From: a virus
Strand: one strand, 5' to 3'
DNA: 37,405 bases
Virus record (IMG/VR): IMGVR_UViG_3300035703_000217
Span: 1 to 37,405 of that record
Below, one piece after another: positions 7,840 to 15,133 of the stretch. The notes under the pieces were generated by a model that was given only the letters and a program-made list of their open reading frames with translations, searched no databases and was not told where the DNA came from. Both the position numbers and the translations under genes were made by a program. Position 1 is the stretch's first letter; each line of letters starts with the position of its first letter.

Positions 7840-9141
7840 TTACATGAGCCACGAGGGCAGGGATTCGGCAGCGGGTGCTACCTCTACAGCACTAAATAAC
7901 GGTGCTGCATTCGTTACGACAGCCGGGCGACTATCAGATTCAGATACAACGGTCAGCTTACCAGCAAGTTTAGATACATACTCTTGTTCTAACCGTTTCA
8001 ATTGAAGTTCAGACAATGACACTTTGGAACCATCACGTTTCTCCCATGTCAGCTTCTCAGCTTTTGCGGGTGATACTAACTTAGTTTCATAAATAGCAGA
8101 CTTAGGGATACCCATCTTAACCAGCTTCTCAGCAATCTGTTCTTCGGGTAAATTCCATGCACGACTACCACGACCATGAACCAGCTTCAAACCATTGATG
8201 GATTGACCAGACTCTAAACGTCGCAAGGCTTCTTTCTCTACGCCTTCGAGTAGCTGGCGCATGAGTGGTGCTGCTTCCATAATTTGACGAATCTGGTCAT
8301 CAGACATGGTTGCAGGGTCTTTATCTGCGCTTTGCTGCGCAATGTCAAGCGTTTGATTTACAGGTTGAAACATAACACCTACTTCTTTCATTACATTACT
8401 TGCCAGTGCAGAGCATGAACCCTTGGCACGACAATATTTACATTGACTTTCACCTGGCACCAGTGGTGCATTAACGGCATCTGTGGCTAATGCTTCATGA
8501 AATAATTCATCGGTACGTTGCAGCAGATATGATACAGGAACTATCCATGTCACAATCGGTTGCATACCCTTCAATGCCAATTTAGGCTGGATGATGGTCA
8601 TGCGCACTTCACGCCACGGATACATTGCTGGCATATTTATCGGCAGTTTGCACTCAGCTAACTTACCAATAGCATACTGTTCCAATTGCAGATTGTTCTC
8701 TGCTTCTACTGGAGCCATACCGTCTTTGTAGTCGATAATCTCCAGCACGTTACCAGCAATAATTTGAACGTCCACGGTGCCTGATAAATCATCACGACCA
8801 GTAAACCACTTTGGGTCAACTCGCGTTTCAGATATGACTTGAGCATCCGCGCAGTCCTTCACACGCTCTTTGATGTAATCAATGGCAATCTTTACACGGG
8901 CAGCGCGGTCAGCATCAACCACAAATTCACCGTCATCGTCTGCAAACTTTTCACCAACTTCACCAGTTGGGTCGGACAGTCCATTATTGATGCAGTGCTC
9001 CAGCAGTGTATGCGTATGCGTCCCGTCAATGGCAGCAGCGTTGTTACGTTCTTCAGGGAACTTAGCTTCCTCACGGACGCTACCGGGGCATAACGCCCAA
9101 CGATGCCGCTTGGATGGTGATAGTTGGGCGTGCGTACTCAT
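7840..9141 (-). CDS. DUF2800 PD-(D/E)XK nuclease, Cas4/RecB-like
   Basis: The 433-residue product starts MSTHAQLSPSKRHRWALCPGS, typical of DUF2800. Nuclease motifs are GTHTHTLLE at 40-48, GTVD at 121-124, IDYK at 136-139 and QLEQY at 152-156. A cysteine group C234-x2-C237-x5-C243 (CKYCRAKGSC), perhaps with a further cysteine, suggests an Fe-S cluster as in Cas4/AddB-type nucleases. A C-terminal helical part follows. It is probably an exonuclease for recombination-linked replication working with the SSB. It is coupled to the upstream gene by a TAATG junction at 9141. Confidence 0.88.
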   Translation of the reverse strand: MSTHAQLSPSKRHRWALCPGSVREEAKFPEERNNAAAIDGTHTHTLLEHCINNGLSDPTGEVGEKFADDDGEFVVDADRAARVKIAIDYIKERVKDCADAQVISETRVDPKWFTGRDDLSGTVDVQIIAGNVLEIIDYKDGMAPVEAENNLQLEQYAIGKLAECKLPINMPAMYPWREVRMTIIQPKLALKGMQPIVTWIVPVSYLLQRTDELFHEALATDAVNAPLVPGESQCKYCRAKGSCSALASNVMKEVGVMFQPVNQTLDIAQQSADKDPATMSDDQIRQIMEAAPLMRQLLEGVEKEALRRLESGQSINGLKLVHGRGSRAWNLPEEQIAEKLVKMGIPKSAIYETKLVSPAKAEKLTWEKRDGSKVSLSELQLKRLEQEYVSKLAGKLTVVSESDSRPAVVTNAAPLFSAVEVAPAAESLPSWLM

Positions 9142-9584
9142 TACGCTGCTTTCAGTGCTTCAATACCTTGATGCAATGCCCCGTAGTGTTCAGGCTTCAC
9201 ATCGTTTATGTTTTGGTATCCAAGACCAGTTAAGATGTTTTGAATCTGTGCGCCCTTCTGTGGCCCCATAGCTTTATATGCACCCATTACATAGTCAATT
9301 AGACCTTTACCATCGGTAAACGGTGCGCTAGTGTTAGCGGCAACAGGTGCGGGTGCTGCTACTGGTGCGAACGTAGGTGGTGCTGGCATAGCAGGTGCAG
9401 GTGCAGGTGCAGGAGTTGGCGCAGGTGCAGGGGTTGGTGCTGGCATAACAGGTGCAACAGGTGCAGCTACTGGTTCGGGTGTAGATGCTACAGGTGCAGC
9501 AATTACATTACCTTTACTTTTTACAGCGTTGGTGAGTTCGATTACAGCGGCGGTCAAAGCAGCTAATTGGTTTTCAATTGACAT
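9141..9584 (-). CDS. Pro/Ala-rich linker protein with a C-terminal helical domain
   Basis: From the ATG at 9584 the product has about 147 residues. It has an N-terminal helix (about 1-24), a long PAP/APTPAPAP low-complexity linker (about 28-95), then a small globular helical domain (about 98-147). The C-terminal part (LIDYVMGAYKAMGPQKGAQIQNIL, 24 residues, given here only by its ends LIDY...QNIL) is seen in other phages beside DUF2800/SSB genes. A tethering or SSB-accessory role is plausible but unproven. A TTG at 9596 is open, but GGAG at 9590-9593 favours the ATG at 9584. Confidence 0.75.
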   Translation of the reverse strand: MSIENQLAALTAAVIELTNAVKSKGNVIAAPVASTPEPVAAPVAPVMPAPTPAPAPTPAPAPAPAMPAPPTFAPVAAPAPVAANTSAPFTDGKGLIDYVMGAYKAMGPQKGAQIQNILTGLGYQNINDVKPEHYGALHQGIEALKAA

Positions 9585-13213: not shown

Positions 13214-13503
13214 GGTGTCACCTTATTTGCGTCACGAATGCCGCGCATATAGGCATCTATCAATTCAGACAACTGACGGGCTGGGATATGCCCCATGTTG
13301 AATACGTCAGATTCCCCCGTAGACTGGTGCATTTTATGAAGTGAAAATCCGCCATATGCCGATCTAATGAAATAAACACCTTCAACACCACCGGTAATCT
13401 TGTCGTTTTCATCATATGTGTAAATCTCATCATCAAGATTAAATAGTCGGTTTAAATTGCTTACTTGTGTAAGCAGAAATTGTTTTGTTATGCGTTGCTT
13501 CAT
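13210..13503 (-). CDS. Conserved small phage protein, unknown function
   Basis: The 97-residue product begins MKQRITKQFLLTQVSNLNRLF and has the segment SAYGGFSLHKM (about 48-58), then IPARQLSELIDAYMRGI (about 73-89). This combination recurs in small proteins of many tailed phages near replication genes, without known function. It is mixed alpha/beta and soluble. Its 5' leader at 13504-13590 is a copy of the leader in front of the clamp-like gene, with the same SD context (TTTTTTGGAGT), so the two genes may be co-regulated after transcription. Confidence 0.75.
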   Translation of the reverse strand: MKQRITKQFLLTQVSNLNRLFNLDDEIYTYDENDKITGGVEGVYFIRSAYGGFSLHKMHQSTGESDVFNMGHIPARQLSELIDAYMRGIRDANKVTP

Positions 13504-13590
13504 GGTAAGACTCCAAAAAATTACAGTTACAGGGTTACACGGTGCAAAGCCGCACCCATAAGACCACGATTACGCATGGCCTTATAGAAC
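13504..13590 (-). promoter_or_regulatory. Structured mRNA leader, copy B (two hairpins)
   Basis: In RNA sense, stem 1 is AUAAGGCCA/UGGUCUUAU (13585-13577 with 13566-13558, one G-U pair) with loop UGCGUAAUCG. Stem 2 is GGUGC/GCACC (13556-13552 with 13545-13541) with loop GGCUUU. Then come UGUAA repeats and UUUUUUGGAG before the AUG of 13503. The order and loops match copy A at 14165-14249, and the stems differ by compensatory changes. No U-run follows, so it is not a terminator. Confidence 0.6.
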
Positions 13591-13594
13591 GGCC

Positions 13595-14164
13595 TTAATA
13601 CCAGGTTGGAGCGCTTACAACCTCAGGATATGCCCTAAGAGGCATAACGTAGGCATGGACTACATCATTAAGGCTGCAATAGCCTACACTATCGCCATTT
13701 TGCTGCACGATATAAGGTAGTACCCGCTTATTGATAATCTGACCAGCCTTGTTAACCAGTGCCAAGTAGTCGGGGTTGAAATACGCACGCTCTCCGGTTT
13801 GTGGTGCTTTGACCACTCTGCGCCAATCAGGATAAACACCATCCAGAACTGGTACGGTTACTGCACCACCAGTACCAGTTAGTTTAACTTGATTGTCAGG
13901 CATGGTATCAATCTTGATGCTGTACTTATTGGTCTTTAAAATAGCTTCGATATGGTCACGGTGCACCAGCACGCTGCACGATTCGCGGCCTTGGGTTTCA
14001 TCAATACGCGCTACAGCTATGCAATAGCCGTTGGTAGCTACTGCGCATGTGCCGGTGTTAGTAGTCTCAAAATAAACACCATTGAGATAATAGCGATTGT
14101 CCTGCTTAGCAGCGAACATTAGCAAGGCTTTAAGGGTAGATGCTTCAATGGTAGCGTTAAACAT
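13595..14164 (-). CDS. Sliding-clamp-like protein (DNA polymerase III beta-related)
   Basis: From the ATG at 14164 the product has 189 residues. Its N-terminal part (MFNATIEASTLKALLMFA, then YYLNGVYFE and AVATNGYCIAVARI) follows the strand-helix pattern of a beta-clamp domain. VLDGVYPDWRRVV at about 109-121 is the typical clamp segment between domains. At about two domains in length it would be a short clamp that oligomerises around DNA and holds the phage polymerase. An ATG at 14209 is open too, but it lies in the leader hairpin, and GGAG eight bases before 14164 decides the start. Confidence 0.7.
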   Translation of the reverse strand: MFNATIEASTLKALLMFAAKQDNRYYLNGVYFETTNTGTCAVATNGYCIAVARIDETQGRESCSVLVHRDHIEAILKTNKYSIKIDTMPDNQVKLTGTGGAVTVPVLDGVYPDWRRVVKAPQTGERAYFNPDYLALVNKAGQIINKRVLPYIVQQNGDSVGYCSLNDVVHAYVMPLRAYPEVVSAPTWY

Positions 14165-14249
14165 AAGATTACTCCAAAAAATTACAAGGTTACAGATTAC
14201 ATGATGCAAAGCGCATCAGATAGGCCACGATTGAGCATGGCCTATCGGA
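14165..14249 (-). promoter_or_regulatory. Structured mRNA leader, copy A (two hairpins)
   Basis: In RNA sense, stem 1 is GAUAGGCCA/UGGCCUAUC (14246-14238 with 14227-14219, nine pairs) with loop UGCUCAAUCG. Stem 2 is UGAUGC/GCAUCA (14218-14213 with 14207-14202) with loop GCUUU. UGUAA repeats and UUUUUUGGAG then lead to the AUG at 14164. It shares 16 identical bases at the SD with copy B and the same fold. It lies between a tiny membrane gene and the clamp-like gene. Confidence 0.65.
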
Positions 14250-14330
14250 TTACATTACATAGGCAAAGTACAACGCCATTGGTAAACCAATCACAGCAGA
14301 CACAATCAGGGCTTCGGTAAAGTTACGCAT
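14250..14330 (-). CDS. 26-residue single-pass membrane peptide
   Basis: The frame begins MRNFTEALIVSAVIGLPMAL and ends YFAYVM. Residues 6-26 form one membrane helix with a short charged N terminus. GGAG stands before the start, whose ATG follows directly after the stop of the preceding tiny gene (TGA ATG). It ends at TAA just before leader copy A. The function is unknown. Confidence rests on SD, coupling and hydrophobic pattern. Confidence 0.5.
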   Translation of the reverse strand: MRNFTEALIVSAVIGLPMALYFAYVM

Positions 14331-14558: not shown

Positions 14559-14605
14559 GATGTTTCTATTGTAGCACGATTGTTTAACGTGTCAATAGAA
14601 ACATC
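14559..14605. repeat. 13-bp inverted repeat spanning the clamp operon promoter
   Basis: GATGTTTCTATTG (14559-14571) and CAATAGAAACATC (14593-14605) are perfect inverted copies 21 bases apart. They cover the -10 and -35 of the minus promoter. The outer seven bases are the same GATGTTT/AAACATC words used in the array, in opposite orientation. This is a likely operator. Confidence 0.7.
14568..14595 (-). promoter_or_regulatory. Strong sigma70-type promoter of the clamp/small-gene operon
   Basis: In minus sense a perfect TTGACA (14595-14590) is followed after 16 bases by TACAAT (14573-14568), preceded by TGC (extended -10). Transcription would begin near 14560, 24 bases before the ATG at 14536. 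It is enclosed in a 13-bp inverted repeat. Confidence 0.8.
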
Positions 14606-14612
14606 GAAATAA

Positions 14613-14951
14613 AAACATCCTTTTTTTACCGATGTTTTTTCTTCTTGTTTACTGTTGTTTAACTTTGTGACAATTTGCCCTTTTATCTTAGGGGGTCGAT
14701 TTTAGGAATCTGGGGAAAAAGACGTTTCAAAAAATGGTATAGAACAAGGATGCGCGCGCGCGAAGTAACAATTGTCACAAAAACCCGCAAAACAGCAAAC
14801 ATCAAAATTCTGCCGATGTTTTGACCAGGTAAACATCAAAATTCTAGCCATGTTTCAAGAAACATCGGTAAATCACGGATGTTTCAATGACGCATCAAAC
14901 TGTGCGCACAATCCACACATTGCACCGAACATCAAAATTCTGCCGATGTTT
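14613..14951. repeat. Array of five 25-bp inverted repeats, AAACATC-N11-GATGTTT
   Basis: Sites are 14613-14637, 14797-14821, 14831-14855 (right arm CATGTTT), 14860-14884 and 14927-14951 (left arm GAACATC). The spacer is exactly 11 bases in all. In the second and fifth sites the spacer AAAATTCTGCC is also identical, and the third is close. Constant spacing of two half-sites points to a dimeric DNA-binding protein. Iteron-type origin or multi-site operator are the main readings. Confidence 0.85.
14664..14781. repeat. 12-bp inverted repeat TTTGTGACAATT / AATTGTCACAAA
   Basis: The arms at 14664-14675 and 14770-14781 are perfect inverted copies 94 bases apart. Each arm holds the near-palindrome TTGT-S-ACAA, so each may be a binding site by itself. 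The enclosed DNA has a (GC)n tract at about 14752-14762. Confidence 0.55.
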
Positions 14952-15060
14952 TGCTGCTCCTCCTGCTGCTGCTCGATTCCTGCTGGTGAAAACGACCCCC
15001 CCCCGCCCCTACGCCCCCAAAGGTCCGGCGGCGACCGTGACTGCGCAGGCTGGCATCACG

Positions 15061-15133
15061 AAACCCGTGAAAATTTTTTTAGAATTGAATGTGTGACAAG
15101 TAAGACAAAACCCGTGAAAATTTTTTTAGAATT
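15061..15133. repeat. 26-bp direct repeat, two copies 47 bp apart
   Basis: Copies at 15061-15086 and 15108-15133 are identical. Each starts AAACCCGTGAAAA, continues with seven T and ends AGAATT. The A/T tracts are typical of bent or easily melted DNA. They lie just upstream of the terminase promoter. Confidence 0.8.

Follow-up and report, generated by a model that had tools for sequence, protein, structure and literature searches.

The two leaders analyzed here appear to be copies of a modular mRNA element that would control the translation initiation of early genes in phages with P22-like portals, a reading to which we give about an even chance. They lie in a 37,405-base IMG/VR virus record (the window, i.e., the whole stretch of DNA that was analyzed), which encodes a P22-like portal, a terminase, a polymerase, an SNF2-type helicase, an exonuclease and a primase-helicase. 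Among annotated phages, the closest relative is Phage DSL-LC05, whose terminase is 89% identical; it was assembled from a lake and assigned to the proposed family 'Luchaoviridae' (PMC10611076). The element is well supported as an RNA structure, and its position suggests an effect on translation. An earlier note on this DNA had described the leaders, their stems and the shared Shine-Dalgarno (SD) context, all of which stood, but had missed three UGUAA repeats and a third helix.

Both leaders were read on the minus strand, at 13504-13598 and 14165-14256, where two-hairpin leaders had been proposed. Each has two hairpins and three UGUAA repeats, and the ribosome-binding context UUUUUUGGAG is identical in the two. 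In the second leader (copy 1), placed before a 97-aa gene, hairpin 1 (P1) is AUAAGGCCA-UGCGUAAUCG-UGGUCUUAU (13585-13558) and hairpin 2 (P2) is GGUGC-GGCUUU-GCACC (13556-13541), followed by a GUAAC array of three units, GUAACCCUGUAACUGUAA (13538-13521), the SD context UUUUUUGGAG (13520-13511) and the AUG of the 97-aa gene at 13503. In the clamp leader (copy 2), P1 is GAUAGGCCA-UGCUCAAUCG-UGGCCUAUC (14246-14219), with 9 bp plus inner U.G and G-C pairs and a NNNAAU loop, P2 is GAUGC-GCUUU-GCAUC (14217-14203), and the three-unit GUAA array GUAAUCUGUAACCUUGUAA (14200-14182) is followed by UUUUUUGGAG (14181-14172) and the AUG of the clamp-like gene at 14164. The 16-base SD context reported as identical in the two leaders corresponds to repeat family D8.

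The pair-preserving changes between the copies were confirmed, with four pairs changed on both sides plus one G-C/G-U. A pair specific to minus-strand RNA had also been claimed, and the U.G inside the loop indeed forms in that strand only, so hairpin 1 has 11 bp. When compared with dinucleotide shuffles, the folding of the two leaders gave z values of -3.4 and -3.0, each leader beating nearly all of its shuffles. In addition, GGCCATGNNNAATCGTGG occurs without mismatch at these two leaders only, and the window contains two UGUAA triplets where 0.02 are expected.

A single strong promoter-like site, TTGACA-16-TACAAT (14595-14568), precedes both leaders. Since no minus-strand terminator was found ahead of or between them, both leaders are probably inside one early transcript. 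A role as operators or transcription signals at the DNA level, the view that Pope et al. favored for the inverted repeats of cluster K mycobacteriophages (PMC3203893), was considered very unlikely. The palindrome AACCCAGTGGGTT is found in early promoters of relatives, so these phages seem to use operators near gene starts, but the two leaders of the window have different stems, the U.G pair is confined to one strand and the position of the element is tied to the SD sequence. At the leaders themselves, neither a promoter-like site on the minus strand nor an intrinsic terminator (a G+C-rich hairpin and then a T run on the coding strand) was found.

Other repeats were observed around the early promoters. 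In L034, L071, L113 and other loci, AACCCAGTGGGTT overlaps the -10 of the early promoter, and the window and L032 have AAACATC repeats in its place. In the window, direct and inverted AAACATC...GATGTTT repeats at 14559-14953 are likely repressor operators, and among them a perfect 13-base inverted repeat (14559-14571 / 14593-14605) flanks the early promoter. The divergent intergenic region at 15058-15133 carries ACRAAACCCGTGAAAATTTTTTTAGAATT in two nearly identical copies.

The clamp-like identity previously given to the gene at 13595-14164 (minus strand, 189 aa) holds, with a match to the DNA polymerase III beta central domain (PF02767, E 1.3e-11) and to PHROG 947, DNA polymerase processivity factor. 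Its best PHROG is labeled RusA-like resolvase, a label that may be wrong; Pfam and NCBIfam say polymerase III beta fold. For the 97-aa protein (P0002; 13210-13503, minus strand), no known family was found, and its AlphaFold model is poor (pLDDT 62), with structural matches almost all to uncharacterized phage proteins. Family members occur in L032, L313 and L146 (alignment A5). A scan with this protein found L031/L032, with 79% identity to it, where the same two-hairpin leader precedes both the clamp and the 97-aa gene with different stems. It is a reasonable inference that the two window genes are under shared post-transcriptional control. Immediately ahead of the clamp leader, the window has a 26-aa ORF (MRNFTEALIVSAVIGLPMALYFAYVM; 14250-14330, minus strand), and small membrane-like ORFs are found at the equivalent position in L032 and L002.

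At the DNA level, nothing similar to the leader region was found among the phage collection records. No Rfam covariance model matched the leaders (gathering score, or local E below 1), and the literature searched does not mention this element, the papers with the repeat string not being about phages. A terminase scan gave 80 loci of relatives, with dozens of sites of repeated GTAA upstream of an SD sequence and a start. A search of viral contigs by the loop pattern only gave chance matches and was rejected. L007 (1612-1660) and L016 were also set aside as probably unrelated; they show a 13-bp hairpin with a similar loop, UGAGCAAUCG, between a tail gene and a small gene, without repeats.

The first five leaders have all 75 cells of the two hairpins paired (75/75), with five pairs doubly changed. 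As the earlier note had suggested, a covariance model was searched; built from these five leaders, it found L145/L165, L146, L049, L051 and L043 at 27-36 bits, the matches outside the training set having E values of 1e-8 to 1e-5. Only matches above 24.6 bits, the highest score of the control loci, were counted, a limit that is not a clean null since the control loci were themselves picked for GTAAC repeats or the loop pattern. In the alignment of seven distinct leaders, P1, P2 and the third helix (P3) comprise 20 pairs, and 97.9% of the 140 cells are paired, compared with 85% in shuffles (0 of 500 reach the real value) and 31-41% in slid registers. Nine pairs are changed on both sides across the seven leaders, and the U.G pair, which forms in the mRNA sense only, is retained in all of them. 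Loop 1 varies widely among leaders. An arm-swap test was discounted because it is biased by the choice of arms for their complementarity, and the five- and seven-leader alignments were used instead. A lack of structural homologues, or stems not conserved, had been named as the outcome that would speak against the structure; such homologues were found, and compensatory changes keep their stems paired, which supports selection on RNA structure.

P3 is the pairing of the hairpin 2 loop with a segment just 5' of hairpin 1. The idea arose from the energy folding of copy 1 and L312b, which gave a longer stem; in the lowest-energy fold of copy 1, AAGGCC pairs with the GGCUUU loop instead of the two hairpins being formed. 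The 5' strand AAGGCC of copy 1 (13591-13596, minus strand) pairs with GGCUUU of hairpin 2 and overlaps the clamp stop codon (13597-13595). In the clamp leader, the 5' strand AAUGU (14252-14256, minus strand) includes the first base of the stop codon of the 26-aa ORF (14252-14250) and has one U-U mismatch with loop 2, which counts against the main explanation in the window itself.

Complementarity between loop 2 and the segment 4-7 nt 5' of hairpin 1 is present in 10 of 11 leaders. In alignment A6 (columns 4-8 and 49-53), 94.3% of the P3 cells are paired over seven leaders, which none of 500 shuffles reached, and covariation is 0.77 compared with 0.30 in shuffles, with the pairs in the same columns in all seven leaders. 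Leaders fetched after the idea gave a P3 score of 70, whereas shuffling of their upstream segments gave 33 (0/5000). The loop-swap control was weaker where related leaders share loops (201/5000 in group A and 291/5000 in the later leaders), and P3 in most group B leaders is GAU:AUC only.

Since P2 and P3 have no common nucleotides, they can coexist as a pseudoknot. A five-base loop that is fully paired would be strained in terms of RNA geometry. Single-strand folding favors P1 plus P3 in the four leaders examined. Both P2 and P3 covary, which suggests a use for both, simultaneous or alternating. P3 would form either a pseudoknot or a two-state switch, the coexistence of P2 and P3 being putative. 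Its 5' strand overlaps or adjoins the upstream stop codon, which is UAA in copy 1 and L312b, UGA in L312a and UGAUAA in most group B leaders. Loop 2 also shows complementarity to the SD sequence (108, compared with 82 for shuffled loops, 6/5000, and 43 for loops of one-hairpin leaders), which is not leader-specific, as loop swapping gave 802/5000. It is possible that the leader works as a switch sensing upstream translation.

Two-hairpin leaders precede seven protein families that are mutually dissimilar (blastp, E 1e-3), namely the clamp, the 97-aa and the 101-aa proteins (L115, L156) and those of the genes in L049, L043, L044 and L051/L145; one apparent match of the clamp to P0002 was discarded as an artefact, its clamp file having contained P0002 too. 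The two-hairpin class of L156 and L322 was assigned by eye. In further scans, L334, L335 and L339-L350 were found to carry the leader before varied genes. In IMG/VR, relatives carry the element not only at these two genes but also before five or more others that are not homologous to one another, and the array alone, or with one stable hairpin, stands before many other early genes. The tie of the leader to two genes, as previously described, was real but too narrow, since it is a module before many unrelated early genes and includes a third helix.

A mobile regulatory cassette, spread and kept because it provides short homology at gene boundaries for the shuffling of small early genes, as proposed for the PeSL elements of T4-like phages, would also place the same leader before non-homologous genes and could explain why leaders are at least as alike within a genome as between orthologues (88% and 91% compared with 86% and 76%). 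This reading was judged unlikely, since recombination needs identity, but compensatory changes keep pairing and not identity. Moreover, repeats precede a core gene of 147 aa (9141-9584, minus strand; CTGTAACTCGTAAACTTGGAG before the start), where they fall inside coding sequence, and the two-repeat pattern is also found before most of its homologues for which the start could be placed. The cassette reading is compatible with a regulatory role. In many relatives, the polymerase and ssb starts (6909 and 7821 in the window, minus strand) read GGTAACTGTAATG or similar, so GUAA units reach into the spacer between the SD sequence and the start.

The array consists of 2-5 GUAAC units, abuts the SD sequence on the 3' side and is more widespread than the two-hairpin part, some leaders having repeats without any hairpin. 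In 18 genomes or arms, 81 GTAAC pairs were found compared with 7.5 expected from shuffles, and 55 of them are followed by an SD sequence and a start codon, compared with 0.9 expected. Outside the window, the sites are confined, with one exception, to a single strand of each contig, which is the strand of replication and small early genes. Across all loci, 192 distinct GUAAC-repeat leaders were counted, sited on the early arm, although they share descent and copying, so that these counts are not independent events. A genome contig scan for (GTAACCC)n gave an SD sequence and a start in 6 of 144 matches; since most lack both, it says little about hosts.

Between the array and the start, the RNA is unstructured (mean -1.1 kcal/mol, z +0.69 relative to its own shuffles), and the 36 nt before the array form hairpins (z below -2) in 28 of 97 leaders, compared with 5-9 in control stretches. 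With an array-to-start region less structured than shuffles, hairpins just upstream, and one-hairpin leaders that often have very stable stems and GNRA-like loops, a constitutive initiation module is possible, though not probable. In such a module, the hairpins would shield or space the site and the GUAAC array would be an open standby site, without a trans-acting factor. However, openness needs no exact GUAAC unit, repeated and conserved across genes and phages, and the covarying P3 and P2 are left unexplained. That GUAAC is conserved exactly argues that something recognizes it. Pairing of the repeat with ribosomal RNA was not supported, the complement strands of E. coli 16S, 23S and 5S being no better than shuffles. 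A weak likeness, in sense, to the gammaproteobacterial 16S rRNA 3' end (GTAACAAGGTAACCGTAGGGGAACC) is seen for GTAACCCGTAACCGTAAAGGAACC in L113 (34155-34178) and similar leaders, the best 16S score being reached by 3 of 300 shuffles with six strands tested.

The unit spacing (n = 168) is 7 nt in 109 cases, 6 nt in 38 and 8 nt in 12. It is hardly credible that the repeats are a stop-codon insulator, in which GTAACCCGTAACCCGTAA would place a UAA in each frame before the start. Three frames do result from the most frequent spacing, 7 nt, and the upstream stop codon is often supplied by the first unit, but all-frame coverage shows no excess (26 compared with 26.6 under independence), 38 of 97 leaders have two units only, and GUAAC is conserved well beyond UAA.

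In the leaders where this was read, the element starts at or beside the stop codon of the preceding gene, and P1, P2 and P3 are all preserved through compensatory changes. In the preferred reading, that of a modular element acting on translation initiation, a phage or host protein would bind the GUAAC array on single-stranded RNA, its binding would be nucleated by the folded 5' part, where present, and the putative bound protein would compete with the 30S subunit. A set of early genes might be turned down together in this way; the sequence alone fits repression or activation. P3 and P2 are perhaps alternatives, since the P2 loop resembles an anti-Shine-Dalgarno sequence and a ribosome at the upstream stop would block P3, so that the leader might sense whether the upstream gene is translated. 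An autogenous control like that of gene 32, exerted by the single-strand binding protein of the phage, is not favored, since the window ssb homologue has only GTAACTTTAAGAGGTAATTG before its start, without the full leader. A more ambitious version is rather doubtful, namely a phage-wide RNA regulon with a portable pseudoknotted leader, an anti-SD P2 loop freed or captured by ribosomes ending upstream and a GUAAC array bound by a dedicated early-gene regulator. If true, the regulon would be a translational switch copied by phages from gene to gene.

The closest known kind of element is the start-associated sequences (SAS) of cluster K mycobacteriophages, short repeats that share one orientation and mark the starts of many non-structural genes, a subset with inverted repeats upstream, and whose role is thought to concern translation initiation (PMC3203893). 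The leaders share with them the position, the orientation, the restriction to non-structural genes and the upstream inverted repeats in a subset, and are SAS-like in the wide sense, with a repeat just 5' of starts, in one orientation and at non-structural genes only. However, they belong to other phages and have another sequence: the 13-bp SAS consensus GGGATAGGAGCCC is absent from both window leaders and from the listed relatives' leaders, which have GUAAC arrays instead. The cluster K SAS is a single 13-bp copy containing the SD sequence, whereas here the array is 5' of it. According to Pope et al., the changes in the cluster K inverted repeats do not support RNA pairing (PMC3203893), whereas here pairing is supported and there is a third helix. 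The SAS of mycobacteriophages, known since 2011, lack a mechanism; a similar system in unrelated phages, common in a viral-contig collection and with a covariation-supported fold, would make the mechanism testable by reporters in a laboratory host. The placing of the element before many unrelated early genes of related phages suggests a shared, previously undescribed way of controlling their translation.

Hairpin-bearing modules between early genes also recall the PeSL cassettes of T4-like phages, which combine an early promoter and a stem-loop and are linked to gene shuffling (cited in PMC4503421); unlike these, the leaders have no promoter and are tied to the SD sequence. One trans-acting factor at the initiation regions of many early mRNAs, as in the T4 RegA regulon, would give such a set of leaders, but the sites that RegA binds lie close to the AUG, are unstructured and A+U rich and show poor conservation (PMC3014915). 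The closest functional analogue is the T4 gene 32 operator, with a 5' pseudoknot, unstructured short UUAAA/UAAA repeats and a ribosome-binding site, which serves one gene under autogenous control by gp32 (PMC535899, PMC3014915). The order of parts is the same here, with a putative pseudoknot in which P2 and P3 covary, unstructured repeats and a ribosome-binding site, but the leaders serve many genes, the repeats are GUAAC, a hairpin is inserted in the putative pseudoknot and the ssb homologues lack the leader. The layout would be that of the gene 32 operator, distributed over many genes in the manner of the RegA regulon, and would give another pseudoknot-plus-repeats arrangement, in this case common to many genes.
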